Part shown: one piece after another, positions 16,831 to 20,286 of the stretch
Numbering within the stretch: the first letter of the stretch is position 1
Layout: each line of letters begins with the position of its first letter
Assembly (NCBI RefSeq): GCF_900111835.1
Contig: NZ_FOJP01000002.1
Coordinates: forward strand, 239,169-303,168
Length of the DNA: 64,000 nucleotides
Reading direction: 5' to 3'
Source: Metapseudomonas otitidis
GTDB taxonomy: Bacteria > Pseudomonadota > Gammaproteobacteria > Pseudomonadales > Pseudomonadaceae
The notes under the pieces: generated by a model
Seen by the model: only the letters and a program-made list of their open reading frames with translations
Databases searched by the model: none
Told to the model about the DNA's origin: nothing
Translations under genes and position numbers: made by a program

Positions 16831-17531
16831 TCAGAGGTCGCTGAGGATCTTCATCTTCAGGCTCTGGTACTCGGCCTTCGAGAGCTTGCCCGACTCGAAC
16901 TGCTGCTTGGCATCGGCCATGGCCTTGGCCAGCTTGTCGGCGCTGGCGAAGGCGGTTTGCGGGTTGACCAGCTTGGACAACCCCTGGAGGGCGCCGATGT
17001 CGCCCGTCACTTCGGCGTTGAAGATCGGGGTCGTGGTGCTGTCGCTGTCGCCGCTGTAGGACACGCTGGAACTCGACTGCGTGGTGCGCTTGCTGGCGCC
17101 CGGGGTGCCGTGTCGAAGCGGGTGAAGCCGAGCCCGCGCTCTTCCATGCCGCGGATGCGGTTTCTCTCGCGCCACTCCTGTTCCTGCTGCTGGCAGTACA
17201 CGTACAGGGCCCGCGCGCTGACCACTTCCAGGCCGTTGAGGCGGATCAGCAGGCCGTTGTAGAGGCGCAACCGCAGTTCGGCGCCGAACAGGTCCTGCAG
17301 CAGGTTCTCGTCGATGGCGGCGTCCTGCAGGTCCTGCCAGCGGATGTCGTGCATGCGGTAACCGCCGATCAGGCGGCGGCGGAAGATGATCAGCCGCATG
17401 TTGGTGGCGACCACCACCTCGCGGCGGTGCTTCAGTGCGTGAAGGCGCAGCTGGTGCGAACTCTGGAGGATGGTCTCGTCCCCCAGCAGCAGGGACTTGA
17501 TGGTGGTGAGCGCCGCTTCGATCCGATCCAT
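16831..17531 (-). pseudogene. PH-like plus SHOCT domain gene split by a frameshift
   Basis: Read from ATG 17531, the first frame encodes a bacterial PH-like domain (LLLGDETILQSSHQ, VVVATNMRLIIFRRRLIGG, HDIRWQDLQDA) and runs on to 17007 with a nonsense-like Arg/Pro/Ala tail. A second frame, open from 17175, gives a natural continuation: Ser/Thr-rich linker, then NPQTAFASADKLAKAMADAK and a C-terminal SHOCT helix pair, FESGKLSKAEYQSLKMKILS, ending at 16831. The two join if one base is added near the C run at about 17100-17110. This is either a real inactivating frameshift or a base-calling error. PH-SHOCT proteins are widespread, of mostly unknown function. Confidence 0.75.
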
Positions 17532-17723
17532 GGAGGCTTTCCGGAGTGTGAAAAAGGGCCGCAGAGTGCCATCGGGCTCGGCTCCGGGCAACCCGGTGTG
17601 CAGTGCATCACGCTCACGGCCTTGACAGGCCGGGTGGCGTGGCGGTCCAATGCGCGCCTTTCCGATCCACCCCCTTCCCTCAAGTGGTGAAGCCAATGCC
17701 CCGCGCCAGCCAACTCGCCTGAC

Positions 17724-17804
17724 ACCGACGACGGTTCGACAAGCTCTGTTGCTGGCCGTGCATTCGCACGCTCACTGATCCCGCTGCATCACGTCGTCGG
17801 TTTT
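17724..17804 (+). promoter_or_regulatory. Potential structured leader of the RNA repair operon
   Basis: Perfect 10-nt complementary arms accgacgacg (17724-17733) and cgtcgtcggt (17792-17801) enclose a smaller hairpin, cgtgc-attc-gcacg (17757-17770). The outer stem is followed at once by TTTT and ends 28 bp before the RNA ligase start, which has AAGGAGAAGA upstream. It could act as an attenuator or a leader structure. No transcript start is known. Confidence 0.4.
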
Positions 17805-17828
17805 CCCTGTTTCAAGAAGGAGAAGACC

Positions 17829-18692
17829 ATGACGGACCACGTCCGCGTTTCGACGCTCAACCTCGACTTGTTCAAGTACCCGCGCACGCCTCACCTGGAG
17901 TCGTCGCGGCTGCAGCTCGGCGACAGCGATGCCGACCAGCTCGCCTACCGTGACCTGGCCGGCTGCCACCTTGTGGTGGAGGAAAAACTCGACGGCGCCA
18001 ACGCCGCCATCAGCTTCTCGCCCGGCGGCGAGCTGTTGCTGCAATCCCGAGGGCATTACCTGATCGGCGGCAGCCGCGAGCGCCAGTTCGGCCAGTTCAA
18101 GCAATGGGCCTGTGCCCACGAAGCCTGGCTGCTGGAGCGCCTGGAAGACCGCTACGTGATGTTCGGCGAGGTGTGCAGCAAGCTGCATTCTGTGTTCTAC
18201 GACCGGCTGCCGCACCTGTTCCTCGAGTTCGACATCTGGGACCGCACCGAGCAGGCCTTCCTGTCCACCCGTGCGCGGCATGCGCTGCTGGCGGGTGGCC
18301 CGGTGCTGTCGGTGCCGGTGCTCCACGAGGGCCCGCCGCCGCCCCGGCTGGCCGACCTGCTGCGGCTGGTCGGCCCCTCCCTGGCGCGTTCGCCCGACTG
18401 GCGCGCCAGCTTCGAGCGCACCGTACGGCGCGAAGGGCTGGACCTGGCCCGGGCGCTGGCCAACGGCGACCACTCCGAGCACATGGAGGGGCTGTACCTG
18501 AAGATCGAGGACGCCCGGCACACCCTGGGCCGCGCCAAGTGGGTCCGCCCGGATTTCGTCCAGGCGATCCTCGACAGCGGCCTGCACCATTCACGGCAGC
18601 CGTACATTCCCAACCTGCTGGCGCCGGGCGTTGACCTCTACGCCCCGCAGCCGGTGGTGACCTGGGCCAGCCTGGCTGCCCAAGGAGACTGA
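17829..18692 (+). CDS. RNA ligase, Rnl2-like nucleotidyltransferase family
   Basis: An ATP-dependent ligase predicted to join RNA 3'-OH and 5'-phosphate ends. K53 in the motif EEKLDGANAA (KxDG) is the expected adenylylation lysine. Further ligase motifs are FGEVCSKLHSVFYD (III), FLEFDIWD (IIIa), HMEGLYLKIED (IV) and RAKWVRPDF (V). At 287 residues it is compact, with no added DNA-binding domain. It has a strong ribosome site. The stop lies 5 bp before the HD-Pnk gene, which would supply the clean ends this ligase needs. Known family members seal nicks in RNA or tRNA; the target here is unknown. Confidence 0.88.
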   Translation: MTDHVRVSTLNLDLFKYPRTPHLESSRLQLGDSDADQLAYRDLAGCHLVVEEKLDGANAAISFSPGGELLLQSRGHYLIGGSRERQFGQFKQWACAHEAWLLERLEDRYVMFGEVCSKLHSVFYDRLPHLFLEFDIWDRTEQAFLSTRARHALLAGGPVLSVPVLHEGPPPPRLADLLRLVGPSLARSPDWRASFERTVRREGLDLARALANGDHSEHMEGLYLKIEDARHTLGRAKWVRPDFVQAILDSGLHHSRQPYIPNLLAPGVDLYAPQPVVTWASLAAQGD

Positions 18693-18697
18693 AGACC

Positions 18698-19840
18698 ATG
18701 GACATGGCAACCCTCAGGGCCCTGGTGCCCAACCCCGGCCAGGCGGCGGACTTCGCCGCCTGCCTGGCGGCCATCCCGTCCCTCGGGCGGCTGGCCGATA
18801 CCCCGCAGGACCCGCTCTACCACGCCGAGGGCGACGTCTGGATCCACACCCGGATGGTGGTGGACGCGCTGCTGGCCCAGCCGGCCTATGCCGCTGCCGA
18901 TGCGGACGCGCGCTTCGTGCTGTTCTTCGCCGCGCTGCTGCACGACATCTCCAAGCCCGATACCACGGTGATCGACGAAAGTACCGGCCGCATCGGCCAG
19001 CCGGGCCATTCGCGGCGCGGCGCCATCGATGCGCGCATCCTGCTGTGGCGCGCCAGCGTGCCGTTCGAGCTGCGCGAGCGCATCTGCCGGATCATCGCCG
19101 TGCACCAGCTGCCGTTCTTCGCCCTCAGCAGCGACCGCAGCGGGCGCCCGGTGGAGTTCACCCTGCACCGGCTGTCCTGGGAGCTGCCGCTGTGGATGCT
19201 CTGCGCGGTGGCGCGGGCGGACATGCTGGGGCGTGGGTTCGACGGCAAGCAGGCGGTGCTGGACGAGATCGACCTGTTCGAGCAACTGGCGGAGGAGGAG
19301 GGCTGCCTGCACGCGCCCAAGGCCTTCGTCGACGAGCACACCCGGGTGCAGTACTTCCGCGGCGCGCGGGTGCTGCCGGACTACCCGCTGCACCGGGCCG
19401 TGGAGGGCTCCGAGGTGGTGGTGCTGGCCGGCTTGCCGGCCAGTGGCAAGAACACCTGGCAGGCACGCCACCGCCCCGACCTGCCGGTGGTGTCCTTCGA
19501 CGACGCCCGCGAGGCGCTGGGCCTGCGCCACGGCCAGAACGAAGGGGCCGCTGCGCACTACGCCATCGACCAGGCCCGGGGACTGCTGCGGGCGCGGCGG
19601 CCCTTCGTGTGGAATGCCACGCACCTGTCGGCACAGATGCGCAAGAAGACCCTGGACCTGCTCTACGCCTATGACGCGCGGGTGGAGCTGGTCTACCTGG
19701 AGCAGCCGGAGGCGGAGATCCTCCGGCGCAATCGCCAGCGCGACAGCAGCCTGCGCAACCAGGACATCGCGCGGATGCTGTTCAAGTGGGAGGTGCCGGT
19801 GCCCAGCGAGGCGAACCGGGTGGTCTATCAGGTGGTGTGA
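18698..19840 (+). CDS. HD-Pnk: HD-domain phosphoesterase fused to polynucleotide 5'-kinase
   Basis: A two-domain nucleic-acid end-healing enzyme, 380 residues. The N-terminal HD domain (about residues 20-215) carries H50, H82-D83 (LLHDISKP), H104, H136 (IIAVHQLPF) and D174, the usual metal ligands; in characterised HD-Pnk it removes 2',3'-cyclic or 3' phosphates. The C-terminal kinase (about 238-380) has the P-loop GLPASGKNTW (K251), the likely catalytic Asp in VSFDDARE (D268/D269), and the Arg-rich lid RRNRQRDSSLR. It follows the RNA ligase by 5 bp. Together they form a heal-and-seal pair. Its last 13 bp overlap a convergent gene. Confidence 0.87.
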   Translation: MDMATLRALVPNPGQAADFAACLAAIPSLGRLADTPQDPLYHAEGDVWIHTRMVVDALLAQPAYAAADADARFVLFFAALLHDISKPDTTVIDESTGRIGQPGHSRRGAIDARILLWRASVPFELRERICRIIAVHQLPFFALSSDRSGRPVEFTLHRLSWELPLWMLCAVARADMLGRGFDGKQAVLDEIDLFEQLAEEEGCLHAPKAFVDEHTRVQYFRGARVLPDYPLHRAVEGSEVVVLAGLPASGKNTWQARHRPDLPVVSFDDAREALGLRHGQNEGAAAHYAIDQARGLLRARRPFVWNATHLSAQMRKKTLDLLYAYDARVELVYLEQPEAEILRRNRQRDSSLRNQDIARMLFKWEVPVPSEANRVVYQVV

Positions 19841-20286
19841 GGCTTCACCGATTCCAGCGCCGCCGCCAGGTGCGCCAGCATGGCCTCCCAGCCGGCGCGG
19901 GCGTTGTCGGCCTGTTCGCTCCAGCGGGCGTCCAGGTGATGGGTCAACTGCAGCTCGCAGCCTTCGTCCAGGGCGCTGATGTCCACGTCGACGCGGTCGC
20001 GCTCGGCGCTGTCCCGGCCGATGCCGAAGGTGAAGGACAGCCGCTGGGGGCGGACCAGTTCGAGGTATTCGCCGACGTGCTCGACCTTCTCGCCGTTACG
20101 CAGTTCCACCATCAGCAGGTGGCCACCGGGGCGGGGATCGAGGTCGACGACGCGCATCTCGCCACCGGGCGTGGCGAACAGGAAGCGGCAGGCCAGCGCC
20201 GGGTTGAGCCAGGCGCTGTAGACCGCGTCGGCCGATTGCGCAAAGCGTCGGTGGGTGTGGAGGGCGAGGGTCTGGGTGTCCTGCAT
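19828..20286 (-). CDS. SRPBCC / AHSA1-like domain protein
   Basis: A 152-residue START-like helix-grip protein. It opens HTHRRFAQSADAVYSAWLNP, the usual AHSA1 start, then GGEMRVVDLDPRPGGHLLMV, then EYLELVRPQRLSFTFGI, and ends in a long helix, WEAMLAHLAAALE. AAGGAG precedes the ATG at 20286. Such proteins bind hydrophobic ligands or act as small regulators or chaperones; the ligand is unknown. It is convergent with HD-Pnk and lies 26 bp downstream of the LysR gene on the same strand, so it may share its transcript. Confidence 0.85.
   Translation of the reverse strand: MQDTQTLALHTHRRFAQSADAVYSAWLNPALACRFLFATPGGEMRVVDLDPRPGGHLLMVELRNGEKVEHVGEYLELVRPQRLSFTFGIGRDSAERDRVDVDISALDEGCELQLTHHLDARWSEQADNARAGWEAMLAHLAAALESVKPHTT

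Follow-up and report, generated by a model that had tools for sequence, protein, structure and literature searches.

A predicted RNA ligase/HD-Pnk operon preceded by a conserved short leader ORF and two exclusive RNA structures: a putative leader-peptide attenuator

The locus studied here is part of a 64,000-nt stretch of Metapseudomonas otitidis DNA, referred to as the window in the following. It comprises two adjacent genes and the 5' leader of their operon (about 17682-17834), which is absent from the earlier sequence-only reading of this DNA. The respective features are:

17622..17651, + strand: possible sigma-70 promoter (TTGACA, 18 nt, TCCAAT), identified by eye; similar TTGAC...AAT elements in Pseudomonas relatives
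17686..17690, + strand: leader Shine-Dalgarno (SD) sequence GGTGA, from a search for SD complementarity (L085 is the same sequence)
17696..17722, + strand: leader ORF MPRASQLA* (ATGCCCCGCGCCAGCCAACTCGCCTGA), from pattern and conservation; translation predicted
17724..17733, + strand: 5' arm of stem P1 (segment 1), ACCGACGACG, starting one base past the leader stop; from pairing
17757..17770, + strand: small hairpin CGUGC/GCACG inside P1, from sequence and Pseudomonas alignment
17792..17801, + strand: 3' arm of P1 (segment 2), CGTCGTCGGT, common to both structures; from pairing counts
17792..17834, + strand: alternative hairpin of segment 2 and the following bases with the ligase SD and AUG; folding z -3.83
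17817..17822, + strand: ligase SD AAGGAG, from sequence
17829..18692, + strand: predicted ATP-type RNA ligase, 287 aa, from Pfam, motif residues and fold matches
18698..19840, + strand: predicted HD-Pnk (HD phosphoesterase plus P-loop kinase), 380 aa, from Pfam, motif residues and AlphaFold2/Foldseek

Both genes are present at the spacing of 5 bp given in the sequence-only reading, i.e., the ligase gene comes first and 5 nt separate its stop from the HD-Pnk start. The start assigned there to the cassette (17724) is about 100 nt 5' of the ligase ATG and falls within the leader. For the candidate promoter at 17622..17651, a promoter scan calls none, and we consider it weak for that reason. The flanking genes, both on the reverse strand, match bPH_3 (bacterial PH domain; 17007-17549) and the AHSA1 family (19828-20286) in Pfam; neither is conserved beside the pair across genera.

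The ligase matches the Pfam family RNA_ligase (PF09414; E 3.3e-32, 112 bits, cut-off 27). K53 sits in KLDGAN and is, along with D55, R74, E114, E133, D135, E220, K225 and K237, invariant in an alignment of 23 sequences. We take these residues to be those of the nucleotidyltransferase/ligase motifs, in agreement with the earlier claim of a ligase carrying such motifs. Its AlphaFold2 model (mean pLDDT 76) was compared with known folds by Foldseek, for which RNA ligases provide the best E value (3.8e-6). The fold neighbours are Naegleria Rnl, archaeal ligases and T4 Rnl2 (identity 15-18%, TM about 0.36-0.44). The former label of an 'Rnl2-like' enzyme is thus correct only in part, since T4 Rnl2 is among the fold matches but the Naegleria and archaeal ligases rank above it, all at about 15-18% identity. 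A single-sequence search of the ligase against the PDB gave no match, and its sequence profile found the Naegleria ligase at E about 0.5 only, ranked below unrelated deaminases. By motifs and modelled fold, the protein is an ATP-dependent RNA ligase (Rnl type) of predicted activity.

For the second protein, an HD phosphoesterase joined to a P-loop 5'-kinase had been proposed, and both halves are recovered. That is, the Pfam family AAA_33 is matched with E 3.8e-18 (66.6 bits, cut-off 27), and HD (PF01966) with E 3.9e-4 at 21.1 bits, just below its cut-off of 22. H50, H82, D83, H104, H136, D175, K251 and D268 are invariant in an alignment of 21 sequences; presumably, these are the HD and P-loop motif residues. 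The first six, kept in 21/21, would represent the His and Asp metal ligands of the N-terminal HD domain. Within the AlphaFold2 model (mean pLDDT 93), the kinase half has its best fold matches in 4gp6 and 4jt2 (bacterial polynucleotide kinase). The HD region matches the tRNA-processing enzymes 3wfo and 3wfp by Foldseek as well as by sequence profile, and the profile search against the PDB agrees with the kinase and HD assignments of the two halves, the activities of which are predicted. The P-loop (residues 245-254) reads GLPASGKNTW; among the 21 aligned relatives, the residue following GK is N, D or S, i.e., mostly not the usual S/T. Neither protein matches an NCBIfam model above its curated cut-off. 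Membership in an anti-phage defence system was rejected since neither protein matches a PADLOC model (E up to 0.1).

Next, we studied how the pair is distributed. The best 80 of 171 HD-Pnk relatives from one-per-species genomes were kept, and 78/80 of the respective loci show a ligase match within 600 nt of the HD-Pnk gene, so the pairing is not a matter of chance. The two exceptions are an HD-Pnk alone (L031) and a locus ending at a contig edge (L033). Conserved linkage, suggested previously as a check of the gene pair, is therefore found among these closest loci. The gap between the genes lies between -4 and +44 nt for most loci, with extremes of -14 and +495 nt. From the 78 ligases, 75 are complete at the start and more than 45% identical, and the remaining three are either contig-cut (L055) or divergent (L068 and L084, 24-30% identical). 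The heal-and-seal interpretation of the sequence-only reading is borne out with regard to profiles, motifs, folds and linkage, its RNA target and activities being the predicted part.

Within about 6 kb, no gene family besides the pair and reading frames overlapping it is common to more than 15 of 81 loci. The widest families reach 15/81 (largely Janthinobacterium synteny) and, for a LysR-type family at scattered positions, 14/81. This fits the earlier remark that no nuclease lies next door, and a conserved nuclease or regulator neighbour was rejected on the same grounds. The pair itself is sporadic. HD-Pnk is present in 4/18 genomes of the window's genus (including the window's own), and the ligase in 20/398 Pseudomonadaceae genomes, in 2/369 genomes sampled class-wide (counting the window's own) and in 7/399 genomes of the order of G620. 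Ligase relatives are furthermore found in 21 of 72,556 plasmid records (E up to 1e-5), two of them at 60-80% identity. Sporadic and plasmid-borne occurrence would be in line with an accessory module subject to frequent loss or relocation. A phage origin was also considered and rejected; one HD-Pnk relative was found among viral contigs (29% identity) and one ligase relative among phage records (25%). The IMG/VR viral contig L112 encodes relatives of both enzymes, with 29% identity for HD-Pnk and 49% for the best-matching piece of the ligase.

We then compared 79 upstream regions, i.e., 75 from the loci of HD-Pnk relatives, L002-L004 and the window. A leader ORF, usually of 8-9 codons, is intact in 78/79 regions from Pseudomonas, Burkholderiales and Pectobacterium. 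It is identified by pattern in 70/79, and inspection by eye of the other nine finds eight with an in-frame ORF, among them L043 with 7 codons and L047, L073 and L077 with ATGAAG starts. Within L023 (4969-5137), the leader stop TGA is replaced by TGG, such that reading would continue through the 5' arm of P1; judged from its sequence, L023 may be a natural variant of the switch proposed below that has lost its leader stop. Rows L001, L043, L104, L105, L111, L112 and L114-L118 were dropped before clustering the leaders. The ORFs of the 85 distinct leaders span 27 nt (55 leaders), 30 nt (29) or, for L023, 24 nt without stop. They start with GTG (69), ATG (15) or TTG (1) and end with TGA (53) or TAA (31). 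SD complementarity of at least 4 nt precedes the ORF in 33/39 representatives; compared with shuffles of the 14 bases in question, the enrichment of such matches is weak (median p 0.14), and the median p against the leader's own windows is 0.0.

The encoded peptides vary widely (e.g., VPYASQHA, VPRFFAITC, VPCTSAPH, VSAIRHYA, MPRTPRSC, MPVITNFS) and are rich in Pro and Arg. No codon is common to all leaders besides the usual Pro at position 2. Given this diversity, no single codon explains sensing. Among the 288 sense codons following the starts of the 39 representatives, Gly, Glu and Trp are absent, while Asp occurs once and Cys 21 times; this bias may stem from a pairing constraint or from a property of the peptide.

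The leader RNA is predicted to adopt two mutually exclusive structures, one of which would block the ligase start, and both are conserved. The first is P1, and the distance from the leader stop to its segment 1, which begins at this stop or shortly behind it, is almost fixed. P1 comprises 7-12 bp in 34/39 representatives and 5-6 bp in L072, L075, L081 and L082; for L074, the stem search does not find it. All counts on 37 sequences given in the following exclude L074 for its missing P1 as well as L057 for a wrong ligase start. In the 37 representatives, P1 contains 316 Watson-Crick pairs compared to 280 +/- 5.5 when partners are permuted (highest of 5000: 304), figures that are not true probabilities since the representatives are related. 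Compensatory double changes are observed, e.g., from C-G to U-A and from G-C to A-U. Within the alignment of 18 Pseudomonas leaders, the covariation term is small (-0.32) because these sequences are alike.

The second structure would be formed by segment 2 and the start region of the ligase. Such pairing is found for 35/37 representatives (shuffles: mean 21.3, maximum 26 in 20 rounds), and the ligase AUG is at least two-thirds paired in 28/37 (shuffles: 19.7, maximum 24). The folding z-score of the alternative hairpin has a median of -3.1 and is below -1 for 36/37. When uninterrupted stems alone are considered, pairing of segment 2 with the start region exceeds shuffles but not windows from the ligase coding region (p 0.063). 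The SD of Massilia-type leaders has changed together with its partner, i.e., GCUCC/GGAGC is found in place of the UUUUCC/GGAGAA seen elsewhere. A pseudoknot that would join the P1 loop to codons of the leader appeared attractive on inspection; L028 and L100 have lost it, and we do not claim it.

To relate both structures to translation of the leader, we folded the RNAs with ViennaRNA while masking the footprint of a ribosome at different positions and computed the energy needed to open the ligase SD and AUG. In this simplified model, which uses an exact footprint and leaves out pseudoknots and co-transcriptional folding, the opening energy for the window's leader is 6.0 kcal/mol when the ribosome sits near the leader start and 12.6 kcal/mol when it sits at the leader stop (difference 6.6). 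An early ribosome is advantageous by more than 1 kcal/mol in 31/37 representatives, with a mean of 4.5, and shuffling segment 1 reduces the mean difference to 0.8 kcal/mol. The difference is 0.6 for L049, and for L044 it equals the control. The sign is reversed (below -0.5) in 5/37 representatives (L045, L048, L052, L067, L070), which are longer leaders of Pectobacterium, Janthinobacterium and Roseateles types. A narrower model, in which the SD alone is opened, shows smaller effects.

Finally, we evaluated how specific the leader element is for the ligase operon. Rfam provides no match for window positions 17400-17900 (E up to 5) nor, at gathering thresholds, for 8 relatives, which rules out a known RNA family within these searches. 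A tRNA-like element was rejected as well, given that ARAGORN finds none in the leader. We built a covariance model from the 18 Pseudomonas leaders and searched 396 Pseudomonadaceae genomes. From the 20 resulting matches, 18 are located directly before the ligase according to their coordinates, and the other two are a partial relic in G388 (L137) and a weak match in G105 (E 0.009). The relic spans model positions 50-123 (E 3e-10); its genome has no ligase match, and the sequence looks as if the operon had been lost. Two ligase genomes are without a covariance match, namely G055, for which a leader is found by eye (L102), and G065 with a 39%-identical ligase. Applied to 39 sources, the model recovers Burkholderiales in part (L046, E 2e-11; L106, 3e-4; L034, 5e-4) and many other Burkholderiales leaders are not found, so the case across genera rests on the leader ORF and the pairings. 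Inspection of L084 (4950-5420) revealed a leader of the same plan (VPCMSAITL*) with a P1-like pairing in front of a 30%-identical ligase (model E 0.078); going by its sequence, it appears as if the ligase had been exchanged with leader and HD-Pnk retained. Neither by eye nor with the model is such a leader found before the plasmid operons of Variovorax, Bosea, Methylorubrum and a cyanobacterium.

Genes, leader ORF and both pairings including their conservation follow from sequence and computation, and we propose that they constitute a heal-and-seal operon under a leader-peptide attenuator of ligase translation initiation, which would induce RNA repair on stalled translation. We assign this reading a probability of about 60%. 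HD-Pnk would heal 2',3'-cyclic-phosphate and 5'-OH RNA ends and the ligase would seal them. A ribosome reaching the end of the short leader would cover segment 1; segment 2 would therefore become part of the hairpin that hides SD and AUG of the ligase, i.e., the switch would be OFF. With a ribosome stalled early, segment 1 would remain free such that P1 can form and capture segment 2, which would open the ligase start (ON). RNA repair would thus be induced when elongation fails, e.g., when tRNAs or ribosomes are cut. Enzyme activities, translation of the leader, operation of the switch in cells and its signal are what we infer in this scheme. Its wider version, in which the attenuator reads ribosome stalling as a proxy for cut tRNA/rRNA to switch on the heal-and-seal operon from Pseudomonas to Burkholderiales and Pectobacterium, is put forward tentatively and with slightly less than even prospects.

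The well-supported SD-blocking hairpin is also what one would find if the leader were a structured element under other control, e.g., by a metabolite, by a small RNA or by one of the two enzymes binding to it, with a minor or irrelevant ORF. The 5/37 leaders that break the ribosome logic in the model and L023, which has no leader stop, point in the same direction. On the other hand, frame, start, stop and SD of the ORF are kept in 78/79 regions though codons vary, and the leader stop has an almost fixed distance from P1, which makes such control unlikely in our view. If the ORF is read, it could also act by arrest that is specific for an antibiotic or peptide. In the cat-86, cmlA and erm leaders, expression is switched on by a ribosome that stalls close to the leader end, and the very short ORF directly before a stem as well as the Pro/Arg-rich peptides would suit a leader of that kind. 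However, the ligase start is blocked more strongly in 31/37 modelled cases once a ribosome occupies the leader end, and the peptide sequences differ widely, such that we regard a late-stall switch as quite improbable. Even less is to be expected from transcription attenuation with P1 as terminator: four or five T follow P1 in Pseudomonas, but the terminator scan calls none, the loop is long, and Massilia-type leaders have no T run, the bases following P1 there matching the SD instead.

With regard to the substrate, the enzymes might act mainly on DNA ends or in radiation/oxidative damage rather than on nuclease-cut RNA. The title of a later Deinococcus paper reportedly ties HD-Pnk to radiation and mitomycin C resistance, which we count for this alternative. 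It is further in line with the phosphorylation of DNA 5'-OH ends by a Deinococcus HD-kinase (PMC1997131). Against it stand the partner, which belongs to the RNA_ligase family and has RNA ligases as its best fold matches, and the leader, which suggests a link to translation; taken together, we consider a role mainly on DNA rather improbable. In the same Deinococcus report, the gene of the HD-kinase protein shares its operon with a ligase-like gene; the kinase was active and the phosphatase result doubtful (PMC1997131). The ligase-like neighbour showed adenylylation, and ligation was not detected in vitro (PMC1997131), which we count against the heal-and-seal reading.

The enzyme pair belongs to a known kind, which makes the enzyme part of the locus ordinary; in our view, its most informative part is the leader. 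A word search for 'ligase' in the main text of a 2010 catalogue of structured RNAs returned nothing (PMC2864571), and the accessible parts of the open-licence full-text literature yielded no description of leader control for such an operon. We therefore consider the proposed leader attenuator, for which the searched catalogues and open-licence literature gave no description, the new part of the locus. If the proposed attenuator is true, it would connect failing translation directly to RNA repair. To our knowledge, it has not been established what triggers bacterial HD-Pnk/ligase pairs in nature and what they act on. A translation-reading leader would indicate which stimulus the system senses, and it offers an easy way of reporting the inducing damage, e.g., by tRNA nuclease toxins, rRNA cleavage or antibiotics.

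The leader-peptide attenuators of trp, cat-86, cmlA and erm consist of a short ORF followed by mutually exclusive stems. The leader studied here shares this plan, and its logic would be trp-like, i.e., ON for an early stall and OFF for a completed leader. In contrast to these systems, it has no Rfam match, would act at translation initiation, and would control RNA repair genes. A study of Runella slithyformis HD-Pnk is said to describe an end-healing enzyme, the genes of which often adjoin ligase genes. In Deinococcus radiodurans DRB0098, an HD phosphoesterase is likewise joined to a C-terminal kinase, and the operon also contains a ligase-like gene (PMC1997131). Here, in contrast, the RNA_ligase-family partner of predicted activity is located directly upstream with no macro-domain-like gene in between, and a leader is present. 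HD-like phosphatases are also mentioned in the context of jumbo-phage RNA repair (PMC7824862). Pnkp-Hen1/Pnkp1-Rnl-Hen1 combines kinase, phosphatase and ligase to mend ribotoxin-cut RNA (PMC4411300), whereas an HD healing domain and a separate short ligase are found here, and no Hen1 gene was seen conserved beside the pair within about 6 kb of the 81 loci. RtcBA, finally, is an RNA repair operon induced by RNA damage, with the activator RtcR binding tRNA fragments (PMC7790460). While control is exerted there by a transcription activator, we propose a cis-acting leader in front of a ligase from another family, such that RNA repair would be controlled in cis as well as through RtcR.
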